Source of the DNA: a virus
Virus record (IMG/VR): IMGVR_UViG_3300017963_000747
Coordinates: 1 to 23,733 of that record
Strand: one strand, 5' to 3'
DNA: 23,733 nucleotides
The translations under genes and the position numbers were made by a program. Within the stretch, counting starts at the first letter, position 1. Every line of letters begins with the position of its first letter. The notes beneath the pieces were generated by a model that was not told the origin of the DNA, ran no database searches, and saw nothing but the letters and a program-made list of their open reading frames with translations. Shown here piece after piece: positions 1-20,389 of the stretch.

Positions 1-275
1 CCATGGACTATGCCCCAAAGCTTAGTTTAGCCGGTTACAATGATTGGCGATCGCCTACGGCTGGAGAGCTATTTGCTCTTATCGACTTCAGTAAATGTAA
101 TCCAGCAACGGACTTTCCAGAAACACCTAGCAAGTGGTTTTGGTCGTCGTCGTCCTACACGCCGATTCCGGACCACGTATGGCAAGTGTACTTCGCCAAC
201 GGCTACGTGAGCTACGGCGGCAAGTACTACGACCTCTATATCCGTTGCGTTCGTCGCGGAGGCCACTGGCTATAA
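1..275 (+). CDS. DUF1566 / Lcl C-terminal domain protein, 5' end outside window
   Basis: This is the C-terminal 90 or so residues of a DUF1566 (Lcl_C) protein, a C-type-lectin-like fold common in phage tail-fibre tips and surface binding proteins. The family signature is visible: AGYNDWRSPT, then ELFALID, then WFWSSSS, then W-x-V-x-F-x-NGYVSY and YIRCVR near the end. The ATG at 3 is very probably internal, because family members continue upstream (usually a W..A..YC segment before this point); the frame is open to the left edge. From about 141 onward codon choice changes to mostly C- or G-ending triplets, unlike the rest of the window; see the separate entry for 144-263. The protein ends in Trp-Leu, like three proteins at 17.6-19.1 kb. 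The family call is firm; a receptor-binding role is inferred from other phages. Confidence 0.8.
   Translation, partial: MDYAPKLSLAGYNDWRSPTAGELFALIDFSKCNPATDFPETPSKWFWSSSSYTPIPDHVWQVYFANGYVSYGGKYYDLYIRCVRRGGHWL
144..263 (+). other. Putative diversity-generating retroelement variable region (VR)
   Basis: Of the 31 codons from 144 to 236, 28 end in C or G, and many are tac, gac, cac, agc, ggc, gcc or aac. These are what adenine-specific mutagenesis of aac codons in a template repeat would give. GC is about 58 percent by hand count over 141-260, higher than its surroundings. The segment sits at the C-terminal end of a DUF1566 fold, a known retroelement target type, and stops at a GC-rich end (cgt tgc gtt cgt cgc gga), where an initiation site would lie. 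No matching template repeat or reverse transcriptase is in the window, so both would have to lie outside it. An ordinary DUF1566 tail with unusual codon use is the alternative. Confidence 0.45.
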
Positions 276-12768: not shown

Positions 12769-13345
12769 GCTATTCTTTAGTGCCGATCACCATTTCGGCC
12801 ACGACAAGATTCTACATCACCAGGCTGACAGTAGGCCTTATTCATCTCTACATGAGATGCATAAGGACTTTGTAAAGAAATGGAACGGACAAGTAGACCA
12901 TGATGACATTGTGTATTACTTGGGAGACTTATGTTATAAAAACCCTGAAAAGTATATCTCCAAATTAAATGGTGAGATTCATATAATTCCCGGCAACCAC
13001 GACAAATGGATACCAAAAGTACATCAGGGAATTAAGACAGGGCTAGTACGCAAGCTGACTTCAGCTTCTAATAAACCAGTAATGATTCATGGCCACATCT
13101 GTCTCCTGAAACATAAGGACGAGATGCTGGTCATGTGTCATTACCCAATGAGATCATGGCCACATTCTCACTTTGGAAGCTTTCATCTGCACGGCCATGT
13201 GCACAAGAAAATTGCCCCTTGGGGACTATCAATGGAAGTAGGAGTGGACAACAATAACGGCTATCTCTATACTTGGCAAGACGTTAAGACTGAGATGGCT
13301 AAACTAAAACACCAGCTAAAGGAGATAAAGAATGAAAAAGATTAA
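12674..13345 (+). CDS. Calcineurin-like metallophosphoesterase (COG4186-like)
   Basis: A 223-residue metallophosphoesterase with the full metal site: D38 and H40 (SADHHFGH), D85 (LGDLCY), N108 and H109 (PGNHD), H156 (CHYPM), H175 and H177 (GHVHKK). The substrate is unknown; the family acts on cyclic nucleotides, nucleic acids or other phosphoesters. The start is awkward: the first ATG, 12674, has AGGAA at 12660-12664 but gives a 31-residue lead-in overlapping the Cas4-like gene by 95 bases, and no ATG, GTG or TTG occurs in frame between it and the conserved SADHHFGH. A non-standard start near 12755-12770 is the alternative. Confidence 0.8.
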   Translation: MRTGKNAKRGQATGSAKIYTAGTTNNVTKIARLFFSADHHFGHDKILHHQADSRPYSSLHEMHKDFVKKWNGQVDHDDIVYYLGDLCYKNPEKYISKLNGEIHIIPGNHDKWIPKVHQGIKTGLVRKLTSASNKPVMIHGHICLLKHKDEMLVMCHYPMRSWPHSHFGSFHLHGHVHKKIAPWGLSMEVGVDNNNGYLYTWQDVKTEMAKLKHQLKEIKNEKD

Positions 13346-13496
13346 AAAAGTTATCTTCACCGCTGATAAGGAGACCATGAAAACCAAATGCTTTGCCATC
13401 TATACAGACGGAACAAGAGAAGAGGTAAACACAGAAAGACAGGATGTGATGGACTGGTTTAAGGAAGAAGAACTGCACCCAGGAGAAGAAGAATGA
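13332..13496 (+). CDS. Small unknown protein, 54 aa
   Basis: A 54-residue frame starting MKKIKKVIFTADKETMKT and ending in an acidic tail (EELHPGEEE). AAAGGAGA at 13317-13324 lies seven bases upstream, inside the end of the phosphoesterase gene, and its TGA overlaps the ATG of the nucleotidase (ATGA at 13493). Tight coupling on both sides makes it a real gene. No family recognised. Confidence 0.75.
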   Translation: MKKIKKVIFTADKETMKTKCFAIYTDGTREEVNTERQDVMDWFKEEELHPGEEE

Positions 13497-14125
13497 TTCT
13501 GCTAATAGACATGGACGGAACAGTAGTCGACTTTATATCCTCCGCCTTAAGGAAAGCAGAAGACATATGGAACATAAAGATAGACGAAAGTGAAGTAGCC
13601 GACTACAAGTTCGAGAGAATAGTTAGAAAGAAACTGAACGAAGTCAATCCTGGCCTCGGAGACGAGTACACCAGTTGGGAGATCTATCAAGCTCTTACAC
13701 TGAATGACCCCAGACTCTTCTTTCAAACACTAGCGCCGTACAAAGATGCCATTGAGTCTTTGGTTACCCTAAAGAAGATGGGACATCAGATTGTATTTCT
13801 AACTAAGACCACACCGCCTCATGGCGAAGCCATGAGCGGTAAGCTTGCCTGGTTAGAACGCTACATCAAACCAAGGTTAGAATACGATATAGTATTTGTA
13901 ATCGATACAAAAACAAAAGCACTAGTTGCAGGCGATGTGGTTGTCGATGACGACCCACGAGTGTTCAAGGCATTCTGGGAATCCGAAGCATTTTCGCCAA
14001 TCGACCCTCTTCCGACCATGATTTGTGTAGCTAGACCATGGAACCAGGAGTTCAGGAACAACCACCCAGAAATACCGGTAATTTATAATTTGAAGAATCT
14101 AGTAAAATCCATGGAGAAGATATGA
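13493..14125 (+). CDS. HAD-family 5'(3')-deoxyribonucleotidase-like protein
   Basis: A 210-residue HAD phosphatase of the NT5C type. Motif I is DMDGTVVDF (6-14) with D6 as nucleophile and D8 as acid/base; motif II is in FLTKT (102-106); motif III Lys is in TKTKAL (139-144); motif IV is VVDDDP (150-155). The NT5C family dephosphorylates deoxyribonucleoside monophosphates such as dUMP and dTMP. With MazG-like and UDG genes this would shape the nucleotide pool. ATGA overlaps link it to the small gene before and the primase-helicase after. Confidence 0.85.
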   Translation: MILLIDMDGTVVDFISSALRKAEDIWNIKIDESEVADYKFERIVRKKLNEVNPGLGDEYTSWEIYQALTLNDPRLFFQTLAPYKDAIESLVTLKKMGHQIVFLTKTTPPHGEAMSGKLAWLERYIKPRLEYDIVFVIDTKTKALVAGDVVVDDDPRVFKAFWESEAFSPIDPLPTMICVARPWNQEFRNNHPEIPVIYNLKNLVKSMEKI

Positions 14126-16572
14126 AAAGAAGATTAGTAGACCTTGAAGCCGCAGCTGCTGCTGTCAGGCCATTCTTGTCCCAGTATTTGCAAGAACATG
14201 GCATAAATACCGAGAAGAACTTCAGGTGCCTCAATCCTAAACATGAGGACAAACGGCCATCTATGACCATGAAACAGGATCCGGAACGAGCATTTTGTAT
14301 GTCTTGTTCTACTTTGTGTGACATATTTACAGCGGCACACTTCTTAGAAGGCAAACCTGCTAGAGGGAAAGAATGGATCGAAGAGAACCTCCTATACCTA
14401 GCAAAGAAATACGGCGTGCAAGTCGAAATGCAAGACCTGACCGCCGATGAAATATACGAATGGAGAACATATGCAGCCTATAGACTAGCAGCTGAATTGG
14501 TCGCAGATCCTGAATTTGGAGACTACAGTCTAGCTTCAAAAGAAATAACAAGGAGAGAATGGGACCCTGCCAAGCTAGCAAACTGGGGTATTGGCACTGT
14601 AAACTTCAATGAATTTAGAGACCGCCTTAAGAAGGCAGGGTTCGAACCTAACATCCTGAGGGGCACGGACCTAGATAGATCTAATCTATTCAATGAGAAT
14701 AATCTTATCTTTACTGTTTATGACGACCTCGGACGCCCAGTAGGTTTTAGTGCTAGAAACTTAAAGTATGACAAAGATAACGAAGACACAGGCTGTAAGT
14801 TCAACAACACCAAAGGCACAGGACTAACCTGCAATATCTTCAAGAAGAGCGAGAGGCTGTATGGATTTGATATTGCTAAAGAAGCTGGATCCCCTCTATA
14901 TGTGTTTGAAGGCCAAGCAGATGTTATAACAGCCCGCCACTTCGGTCTTATGAACTGCTGTTGTATGATGTGTGCTAGTCTATCCGACCATCATGTGAAC
15001 CTTCTCAAGAAGCACGGTGCATTCAATATAGTACTAGTCTTTGATGGCGATCCAGCCGGTAGAAAGGCAATAGAAAAGGCCATTGACGAGAAGTTCAGCA
15101 AACATAAAGACTTCCGGATAAAACTAATTCAACTACCAGACGGGACCGATCCAGACAGACTGTTGAGAGAAGAAGGAATAAGCAACTTCACTCAGCTAAA
15201 GAAATGGACTGCCTTTGAGTGGAGGCTATCGAAGCTACTAGAGGAACACAAGAACGACGAGGACAGCGCTAGAGAAATAGCAGAAAAGATGACCCCCATC
15301 ATCGCCCAAGAAGAGGGGTATATACGCCAAGAAGATATGTGTAAGCAAGTAGCCAAGATGACTGGCTATACACTGTCCACAATTACAGCAGAAGTAAAAA
15401 GACTCAGATCGGCAAAGGAGGCGAAGCTCCAGGCAAGACGCAGAGGAGTTGTAGAGGCTGCTTTAGACAAGGCTATGCATAATCCCGACGAGGCCGAAGT
15501 GGCCCTGGCTGAATGTCAAATAGACCTAGAGAATATAAAGAGAGAAGTAGATCCTGAGGGCGAGGGCACCACGCCCGTACTGGACTTTGTCCTGTCCCAG
15601 AAGGAGAAGGATGAGAACAAGACAGGAGAATTCGAAGGATACTTGCTTAGGCCAGAAGGTCTAGGAGGCATAGGATACAGGCTCAACGGCGACTGGAAGA
15701 AAGAAAACCTTATATATATTGGCGGAGTAGAACAGACCGGCAAGACCACGCTAGCCTCACAAATGGCTTATGAAATAGCCAGCAATCCTAAAAACAATGC
15801 TATTGTTATCTATCTCAGTATCGACGACGCAGCTAGATCTATTTTGTACAAATGGGTCTGTCAGGCAGCCGACAATCTTGCACTAGAGCTGAACCATATA
15901 GCTAGTCCAAAGTACTGGAGGGACCAAGGGTACAAAGGCCTCGATAAGCTCAGAGAGAGGGGGTACAAAAAGGTTGTCAATCTAATCAAAGACGGAAAGC
16001 TCATACTCAAGGATGCTACCAATGGAGGTTCTCTTCTGTATATAGAATCGCTAGCTAAACACTACCGATCAATAGCACCAGACCAGAATGTTGTACTAAT
16101 AATAGACAACTTCCACAAAATCTTCGAGCAAGCTAACGAGAGAAGCGTCGGCCACGAAAGAACCAAGAAGACTTCAAATCAGCTAAAGAAAATAACTACA
16201 ATACACAATCTAACAGTCATAGCAACTGCTGAATATAGAAAACAGCAACCTGGCGAAGATCCTAGCAATGTAGCCCTAGCCGAATCTCGTGCTCTCAGCT
16301 ATGATGCCACTGTAATTTTACATTTATATAATGACCTCCACTCAAATGGAGAAGACAAAGCTATATTGGTGCATAAACCAGGGGATGTACTGCTACCTCG
16401 CGTCAGGTGCCAATTTGGAAAGAATAAGGTTGCTGGATATGAAGGAAGAGAGTTCCTTGACTTCTTCCCAGCTTCCGCTACCATGAAAGCAATAGACCTT
16501 AAGACAGCAATGGAAGATCAGATGCTAAGACTAGAGTACCTTAAAGGAGACAATAAATGCAGAAGGTCCTAA
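14122..16572 (+). CDS. Primase-helicase (T7 gp4-like)
   Basis: An 816-residue fused primase and replicative helicase. A CHC2-type zinc site is C36-x4-H41 and C59-x2-C62. TOPRIM primase residues are E263 (FEGQAD) and D308/D310 (DGDPAG). A DnaB-like motor follows: Walker A GVEQTGKTT (535-543, K541) and Walker B with D662 (LIIDNFHK), then TVIATAEYRK. It would unwind the fork and lay RNA primers for the DnaE polymerase encoded upstream. The stretch from 360 to 520 is a helical linker rich in charged residues. Start overlaps the nucleotidase stop (ATGA). Confidence 0.93.
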   Translation: MKRRLVDLEAAAAAVRPFLSQYLQEHGINTEKNFRCLNPKHEDKRPSMTMKQDPERAFCMSCSTLCDIFTAAHFLEGKPARGKEWIEENLLYLAKKYGVQVEMQDLTADEIYEWRTYAAYRLAAELVADPEFGDYSLASKEITRREWDPAKLANWGIGTVNFNEFRDRLKKAGFEPNILRGTDLDRSNLFNENNLIFTVYDDLGRPVGFSARNLKYDKDNEDTGCKFNNTKGTGLTCNIFKKSERLYGFDIAKEAGSPLYVFEGQADVITARHFGLMNCCCMMCASLSDHHVNLLKKHGAFNIVLVFDGDPAGRKAIEKAIDEKFSKHKDFRIKLIQLPDGTDPDRLLREEGISNFTQLKKWTAFEWRLSKLLEEHKNDEDSAREIAEKMTPIIAQEEGYIRQEDMCKQVAKMTGYTLSTITAEVKRLRSAKEAKLQARRRGVVEAALDKAMHNPDEAEVALAECQIDLENIKREVDPEGEGTTPVLDFVLSQKEKDENKTGEFEGYLLRPEGLGGIGYRLNGDWKKENLIYIGGVEQTGKTTLASQMAYEIASNPKNNAIVIYLSIDDAARSILYKWVCQAADNLALELNHIASPKYWRDQGYKGLDKLRERGYKKVVNLIKDGKLILKDATNGGSLLYIESLAKHYRSIAPDQNVVLIIDNFHKIFEQANERSVGHERTKKTSNQLKKITTIHNLTVIATAEYRKQQPGEDPSNVALAESRALSYDATVILHLYNDLHSNGEDKAILVHKPGDVLLPRVRCQFGKNKVAGYEGREFLDFFPASATMKAIDLKTAMEDQMLRLEYLKGDNKCRRS

Positions 16573-19227: not shown

Positions 19228-19801
19228 GGTAATCTGCAGCAAGTGTAAACAACCAGCCTTCTACCTGCCTAGCAAGTATGACATGAACATACCTATACTA
19301 TGTATAGCTTGCGGGTCGGGCAAGAAGAGAACTGTTAAGACTGCTGCAGCAAGATATGCCAATATAAAGAGAGGCAAGAGAGAAGATCTAGGAGATGACT
19401 TCTTTCGTTCTCCAACAGAAGCAAACTTTGCCAGGGCTTTAGTCTCGTTAAAGATCCCCTATGAATTTGAGAAGAGAGTCTTTACCTTCGCTAACTACGA
19501 GCGCAAGCCTTTTCAGTATATACCGGACTTCAAGATACTACCACACAAGTCAAAAAGCGCCTGGGGCAAGCAATTTACACCCGGCTGGTACGAGATCAAA
19601 GGATGGATGAATTCTGAATCCCGCAGCAAGCTCAAAAGGTTCAGGATTTGTTATCCAGAAGAAGCCAAGAAGATGACGGTTGTTGTTTACGCTAGATCTG
19701 ATAGAGCTGCAGCAGAGTTTTGTAAGAAAGAAGGCTTTAGAGTTCTGTATTGGGACGTAATACGTAAAGACTTCGAAGTGAAAATACCCACTTGGGAGTA
19801 A
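19187..19801 (+). CDS. Zinc-finger PD-(D/E)XK endonuclease
   Basis: A 204-residue putative nuclease. C17-x2-C20 and C39-x2-C42 form an N-terminal zinc site. The core reads FRSPTEANFARAL (E78), then FQYIPDFKI (P113-D114), then GWYEIKGW (E136-x-K138), then MTVVVYAR. This E, PD, ExK order is typical of resolvase or T7 endonuclease I-like folds and of some phage homing nucleases. ATG 19187 lies inside the 37-aa frame; ATG 19205 is a second choice and neither has a strong ribosome site. It is the second nuclease set among the Trp-Leu proteins. Confidence 0.7.
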   Translation: MAKRVAMTKRKYTKVICSKCKQPAFYLPSKYDMNIPILCIACGSGKKRTVKTAAARYANIKRGKREDLGDDFFRSPTEANFARALVSLKIPYEFEKRVFTFANYERKPFQYIPDFKILPHKSKSAWGKQFTPGWYEIKGWMNSESRSKLKRFRICYPEEAKKMTVVVYARSDRAAAEFCKKEGFRVLYWDVIRKDFEVKIPTWE

Positions 19802-19807
19802 TAGTTC

Positions 19808-20389
19808 ATGGCCTGGAAAATACCAGAAAGAGTAGCCAAGAAACTTAGGAAGTATGCTATTCCTCTGACATCAAAGGACTATAACTTCAGTTATCGTGTC
19901 CGTGTGTTTCATGCCTTGCTAAAACCGTTGCTAGGATGGGCACGAAAGTCCCTAAAAGAAGCTGGCCTAGAAGAACACGAGATAGATTCTGAGCTATACA
20001 TTATCTGTTGGCACCTGCTAAAAGAATACAAACCATACAAAAGCAGTATAGTGCCATATCTTAGAAAACAGGTGCCCTGGAAAATAGCAAGCCTGCTAGA
20101 GAGGATAAGGAAATGTAATACGGAAATACCCTCAGGGCTAATAACCAAACCCGAAGAGAGTTATTCTATGCCGAACGAGATATACCTCAGTGTGCCAAAC
20201 ATACTTTTTGAGGACCGCTGGCTCGGTAAAAACTTGCAAAAATGTCAAAAATATCTTATATATAGATTATTAGTAGCAGATAGTCACAAGAGAGAAGACC
20301 TTGCCGAAGATAATGCACTAGGAAGATGGACAATATTTAATCGAATATCTGAACTAAGAGATATTCTGAAAGAGAGAGGAGTCTCATGA
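19808..20389 (+). CDS. Sigma-70-like factor (tentative)
   Basis: A 193-residue helical basic protein. Residues about 30-100 (FHALLKPLLGWARKSL to EIDSELYIICWHLLKEYKP, then IVPYLRKQVPWKIASLLERIRK) resemble sigma region 2, which binds core polymerase and the -10 element. The last 50 residues (QKYLIYRLLVAD to GRWTIFNRISELRDILKERG) could be the helix-turn-helix of region 4. If correct, it would redirect host RNA polymerase to phage genes. GGAG at 19795-19798 precedes the ATG. The match is by pattern only and could be another helix-turn-helix regulator. Confidence 0.45.
   Translation: MAWKIPERVAKKLRKYAIPLTSKDYNFSYRVRVFHALLKPLLGWARKSLKEAGLEEHEIDSELYIICWHLLKEYKPYKSSIVPYLRKQVPWKIASLLERIRKCNTEIPSGLITKPEESYSMPNEIYLSVPNILFEDRWLGKNLQKCQKYLIYRLLVADSHKREDLAEDNALGRWTIFNRISELRDILKERGVS

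Follow-up and report, generated by a model that had tools for sequence, protein, structure and literature searches.

Does the gene that is cut off at the left end of this viral fragment carry the variable repeat (VR) of a diversity-generating retroelement (DGR)? The record IMGVR_UViG_3300017963_000747 is a linear IMG/VR fragment of 23,733 bases, which was analysed over its whole length (the window), and base 1 is the end of the record. The features concerned are the following:

3 to 275, + strand: terminal portion of a DUF1566/Lcl_C (C-type-lectin-like) gene, matched by PF07603 and truncated on the 5' side by the contig edge
273 to 275, + strand: stop codon of the DUF1566 gene
141 to 260, + strand: putative DGR variable repeat, defined by the codon shift, the template register and NNC codons at 9 of 9 template adenine-codon sites; its ends are approximate
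156, 171, 174, 189, 195, 204, 210, 213, 216, 219, 225, 228, 231 and 234, + strand: NNC codons

The assignment of the gene to DUF1566 in the original prediction was borne out by a PF07603 (Lcl_C) match of 73.9 bits (cut-off 34.9; E = 1.7e-20) that covers profile positions 33-117 of 117; some 32 N-terminal positions of the profile are missing and the record thus begins inside the gene. The match exceeds the curated cut-off and places the domain at the C-terminus of the gene, as is looked for in a lectin-like DGR target. That the fold is a known target of these elements agrees with the literature: DUF1566 was the commonest DGR target domain in one survey (PMC4159848) and has also been named as such elsewhere (PMC6642488).

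The codon usage of the gene changes in its C-terminal part. The reported count of 28 C/G-ending codons out of 31 between 144 and 236 proved exact and is unmatched by the other genes of the window: the larger ones have a mean GC3 of 0.41, and the highest count in any other 31-codon stretch was 22 (5,294 frames). When the encoded amino acids were taken as given and the synonymous codon use of the window itself served as reference, 27 of 30 codons ended in G or C with 12.2 expected (P = 1.7e-8, z = 5.6), the next-largest z elsewhere in the window being 3.6. The 5' part of the gene (3-143) is ordinary in this respect (15 of 43, with 17.0 expected), and the switch starts at the conserved W-S-S motif, which is also where the VRs of the verified cases start. 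Over the C-terminal motif GC3 amounted to 0.84 in the window and 0.83 in one verified pair, and did not exceed 0.74 in other DUF1566 genes. The GC-rich stretch at the end of the repeat, which had been taken to resemble the end for initiation of mutagenic homing (IMH), is real:

241 to 259, + strand: A-free GC-rich run of 19 bases, a possible IMH end, which also encodes the family motif R-C-V-R

It constitutes weak evidence, because the same bases encode the R-C-V-R motif that is common in DUF1566 proteins. A cruciform 3' of the repeat like that of the Bordetella phage was sought between 231 and 340, where a scan for perfect hairpins (stems of 6-12 bp) had no result.

We then compared the repeat with templates of verified DGRs, for which the following core was used:

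183 to 230, + strand: 48-bp core aligned with the template of locus L033, with fixed GTG, TTC, AAC, GGC, GTG, AAG and TAC around NNC codons

The window reads CAA GTG TAC TTC GCC AAC GGC TAC GTG AGC TAC GGC GGC AAG TAC TAC and the template, which is located on a 112-kb IMG/VR virus (G011), reads AAC GTG AAC TTC AAC AAT GGC AAC GTG AAC AAC AAC AAC AAG TAC AAC. The two differ at 12 of the 23 template adenines and at only 2 of the 25 other bases, whereas the best of all other positions of the window (n = 47,365) had 8 non-A mismatches and the mean was 19. L033 is not the template of this phage, but it is a template of the same design. The pattern of fixed and NNC codons is likewise in register with the other verified template/variable pairs (L027, L046, L043, L040 and that of Burkholderia phage Magia).

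The skeleton of the repeat can be written as GTGNNCTTCNNCAACGGCNNCGTGNNCNNCNNCNNCAAGTAC. A DNA search pattern was also built from the fixed codons inferred for the window, the sites inferred to vary being entered as NNC. Among 2.9 million viral contigs it recovered 21 matches, of which those within DUF1566-like genes were L015, L018, L021 (two), L027 and L033. L027 and L033 are members of template/variable pairs with 0 non-A and 15-16 A differences, and L018 is itself a template, with a VR (L046) at 0.8 kb. An RT (RVT_1) is encoded on each of the viral contigs of L018, L027 and L033 (G008, G010 and G011, respectively), with the motif IGNLTSQ, IGNITSQ or IGNLTTQ, i.e. IGN(L/I)T(S/T)Q, which we take to be of the DGR type. 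In G011, G010 and G008 (L038, L037 and L036) the template immediately precedes the reading frame of the RT and is in frame with it, so that translation may add it to the N-terminus of the RT ORF. The strict pattern had no match in prokaryote genomes; a relaxed version recovered five loci there, of which the two in low-GC DNA (L040 and L043) had templates with 0 non-A differences and the three at 62-69% GC had no template locally. In low-GC DNA the skeleton hence pointed to a DGR in 5 of 7 loci. The exceptions, G007 and G009, are linear fragments of 42-50 kb with repeats of this kind, on which no RT or template was found. The 50-kb viral contig G009 carries two such DUF1566-like VRs (L021; 1817-1855 and 7998-8036, minus strand), which share the skeleton and differ in their NNC codons.

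The verified examples were partly retrieved by the NNC pattern itself and are biased to that extent; the unselected negatives were taken from family searches, with DUF1566 genes sampled in two phyla (60 and 59 genomes). NNC was scored at the nine positions occupied by adenine codons in the verified templates, and the window had it at all nine. Below 50% GC, scores of 8-9 were found only in verified templates and VRs, and genes without a found template scored at most 6; at more than 58% GC, scores of 8-9 also occurred in genes for which no template was found (L008, L041, L042 and L056). Repeats with a template may score low (5-6 for L095 and L111, the pair of the latter being judged by eye from two reading frames) and the test is therefore specific rather than sensitive. 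The comparison shows that the NNC signature is specific for DGR repeats below 50% GC. DUF1566 proteins that are not associated with a DGR (Leptospira, Pseudomonas phage U9) have the same domain and C-terminal motif as the window, but in low-GC genomes their genes lack, unlike the window, the all-NNC pattern at the template sites.

Taken together, the sequence comparisons make it likely that 141-260 is the VR of a DGR and encodes the C-terminal region through which a large tailed phage's DUF1566 protein binds its ligand. The original prediction of a DGR target is thus supported by the same fixed codons, NNC sites and register as in verified pairs, a combination that is specific below 50% GC; the support is indirect and falls short of proof. 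Following established DGR biology (PMC8144416, PMC4159848), a template repeat with AAC codons at the variable sites would be transcribed elsewhere in the phage genome, a DGR RT would copy the template RNA and misincorporate at its adenines, and the resulting cDNA would replace the repeat. The fixed codons would preserve the fold while some nine to fourteen NNC codons vary, and a lectin-like binding surface would be diversified, most plausibly for host attachment.

The nearest known systems are the viral DUF1566-like DGRs L033/G011 (IMGVR_UViG_3300021387_001464), L027/G010 and L018/G008, which have the same fixed codons and NNC sites in a C-terminal repeat. They differ from the window in that template and RT are present near the target, and these viruses were not collinear with the phage in any comparison made. 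Burkholderia phage Magia, found among the weak tblastn matches to the window protein, has a DUF1566-like repeat at the C-terminus, the NNC sites of which are in register with those of the window; it differs by Gln for Val/Lys at fixed sites, by a high-GC genome and by a complete cassette (two targets, Avd and RT), in which the DUF1566-like and lectin-fold genes directly precede the annotated Avd-like protein and the RT. The founding example of these elements is the DGR of Bordetella phage BPP-1 (Mtd, Avd, Brt). The likeness to it would lie in a C-terminal lectin-like target that is varied at adenine-derived NNC codons (PMC6642488 and general knowledge), whereas the target protein is a different one and the window showed no downstream hairpin, template or RT. 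The DGR system itself is well known. If the VR reading is correct, a phage lineage with a long genome and its own DnaE, primase-helicase and RecA joins those that diversify a probable receptor-binding protein, and a fragment that lacks template and RT can still reveal a VR, through NNC codons that are in register in a low-GC genome.

Another origin of the signature would be that the C-terminal part was recombined in from a high-GC phage or bacterium, has kept the codon usage of the donor and is not a DGR target now. High-GC genomes give the same NNC pattern with no template found nearby (L008, L041, L042 and L056). In Pseudomonas phage U9 (58% GC over the part that was read) the DUF1566 gene ends in a similar way, with 8 of 9 NNC and 75.9% identity over 54 bases of the repeat, and the record of this phage had no RVT_1 match. 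However, the resemblance to U9 covers few bases and lacks significance (E 0.6), the searches brought up no high-GC donor with an extended match, the fixed codons correspond in detail to those of a viral template (L033), and the switch begins at the W-S-S motif as in verified VRs. We therefore consider such a transfer unlikely.

The statement that template and RT are missing from the window agrees with the searches made of the record. In the 23.7-kb window no template of the repeat was found, the best candidate having 34 non-A mismatches out of 120, and no RT was recognised among the window proteins scanned. A general scan for repeat pairs whose differences all fall at adenines of one copy (TR/VR pairs) yielded no pair; in Magia, used as positive control, it recovered the template and both VRs with 0 non-A differences. 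Little can be concluded from these negative results, because in verified viral DGRs the distance of template and RT from the target is no more than about 1-2 kb, and only the right side of this target can be read. Roux et al. noted that their own RT-neighbourhood search was blind to remote targets (PMC8144416), and targets separated from their RT are therefore to be expected on fragments. Searches of the viral contigs revealed no close relative of the DUF1566 protein of the window and no match to the 26-base end of the repeat.

Relatives of the phage were instead found with DnaE and the primase-helicase as queries, which retrieved collinear contigs with about 52-60% identity in these proteins: G134 (110 kb), G138 (115 kb), G139 (64 kb), G140 (174 kb) and two short ones. 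Neither PF07603 nor RVT_1 was found in the collinear relatives (contigs of 64-174 kb), and the relatives of RecA, about 30% identical, had no DUF1566 either. Synteny extends to the left as far as gene 1222; farther left, the place of the window's DUF1566 gene and short genes is taken in two relatives by a large protein, read from its sequence as a ribonucleotide reductase. Because synteny stops at gene 1222 and the relatives differ beyond it, the left 1.2 kb of the window is an accessory region, and any DGR, if one exists, would be accessory and gained together with its target. Relatives without a DGR weaken the case slightly and do not contradict it, because RT and target are absent together. 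One further RT, encoded on G135, was rejected as a DGR RT (QGSPASP motif, no TR/VR pair); this contig shares a short stretch of the gene at 555-968 and is not collinear with the window.

The lack of RT and DUF1566 in the collinear relatives, and of RT and template beside the repeats of G007 and G009, would also fit a former VR, of which the template or RT was lost by the phage (an orphan, frozen repeat) or which is served in trans by a DGR of the host or of a co-infecting phage. We regard this as improbable, as all these records are fragments and the verified viral DGRs have template and RT within some 1-2 kb on the contig of the target. There is a slim chance of a stand-alone hypervariable target in a lineage without a DGR of its own, diversified in trans by template and RT of the host or another phage. 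A chance fluctuation of codon usage in an ordinary DUF1566 gene, for which one could cite the moderately raised GC3 (up to 0.74) of some DUF1566 genes without a found template, is practically negligible in view of the P value of the codon shift, the lack of a comparable stretch in the window and the specific register with verified templates.

Some observations on the left accessory region and on the relatives stand apart from the proposed VR. A 29-bp direct repeat (290-318 and 555-583, 97%) shows that the start of the gene at 555-968 is copied just past the DUF1566 stop, where the copy carries a premature TAG; this duplication suggests rearrangement in the left accessory region. On the contig of G138 a low-complexity Gly/Tyr/Asp repeat ORF (Ala/Thr in another frame) is found at the end (L139, around 19490-19820, minus strand), about 5 kb beyond the homologue of gene 1222. 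The dnaE gene is uninterrupted in the window and is interrupted by inserts of about 1.0-1.2 kb in G134 (L117, 5115-6350) and G140 (L138); recA, also uninterrupted in the window, is interrupted likewise in G140, where the inserts span 13296-14510 and 6843-7883 of L138. These inserts are probably inteins or introns. The product of the gene at 555-968 is small, has a HESSH (HExxH) motif and no Pfam match, and is probably a membrane protein; a similar-looking small protein with HELIH is encoded on G139 (L140, 9827-10339).
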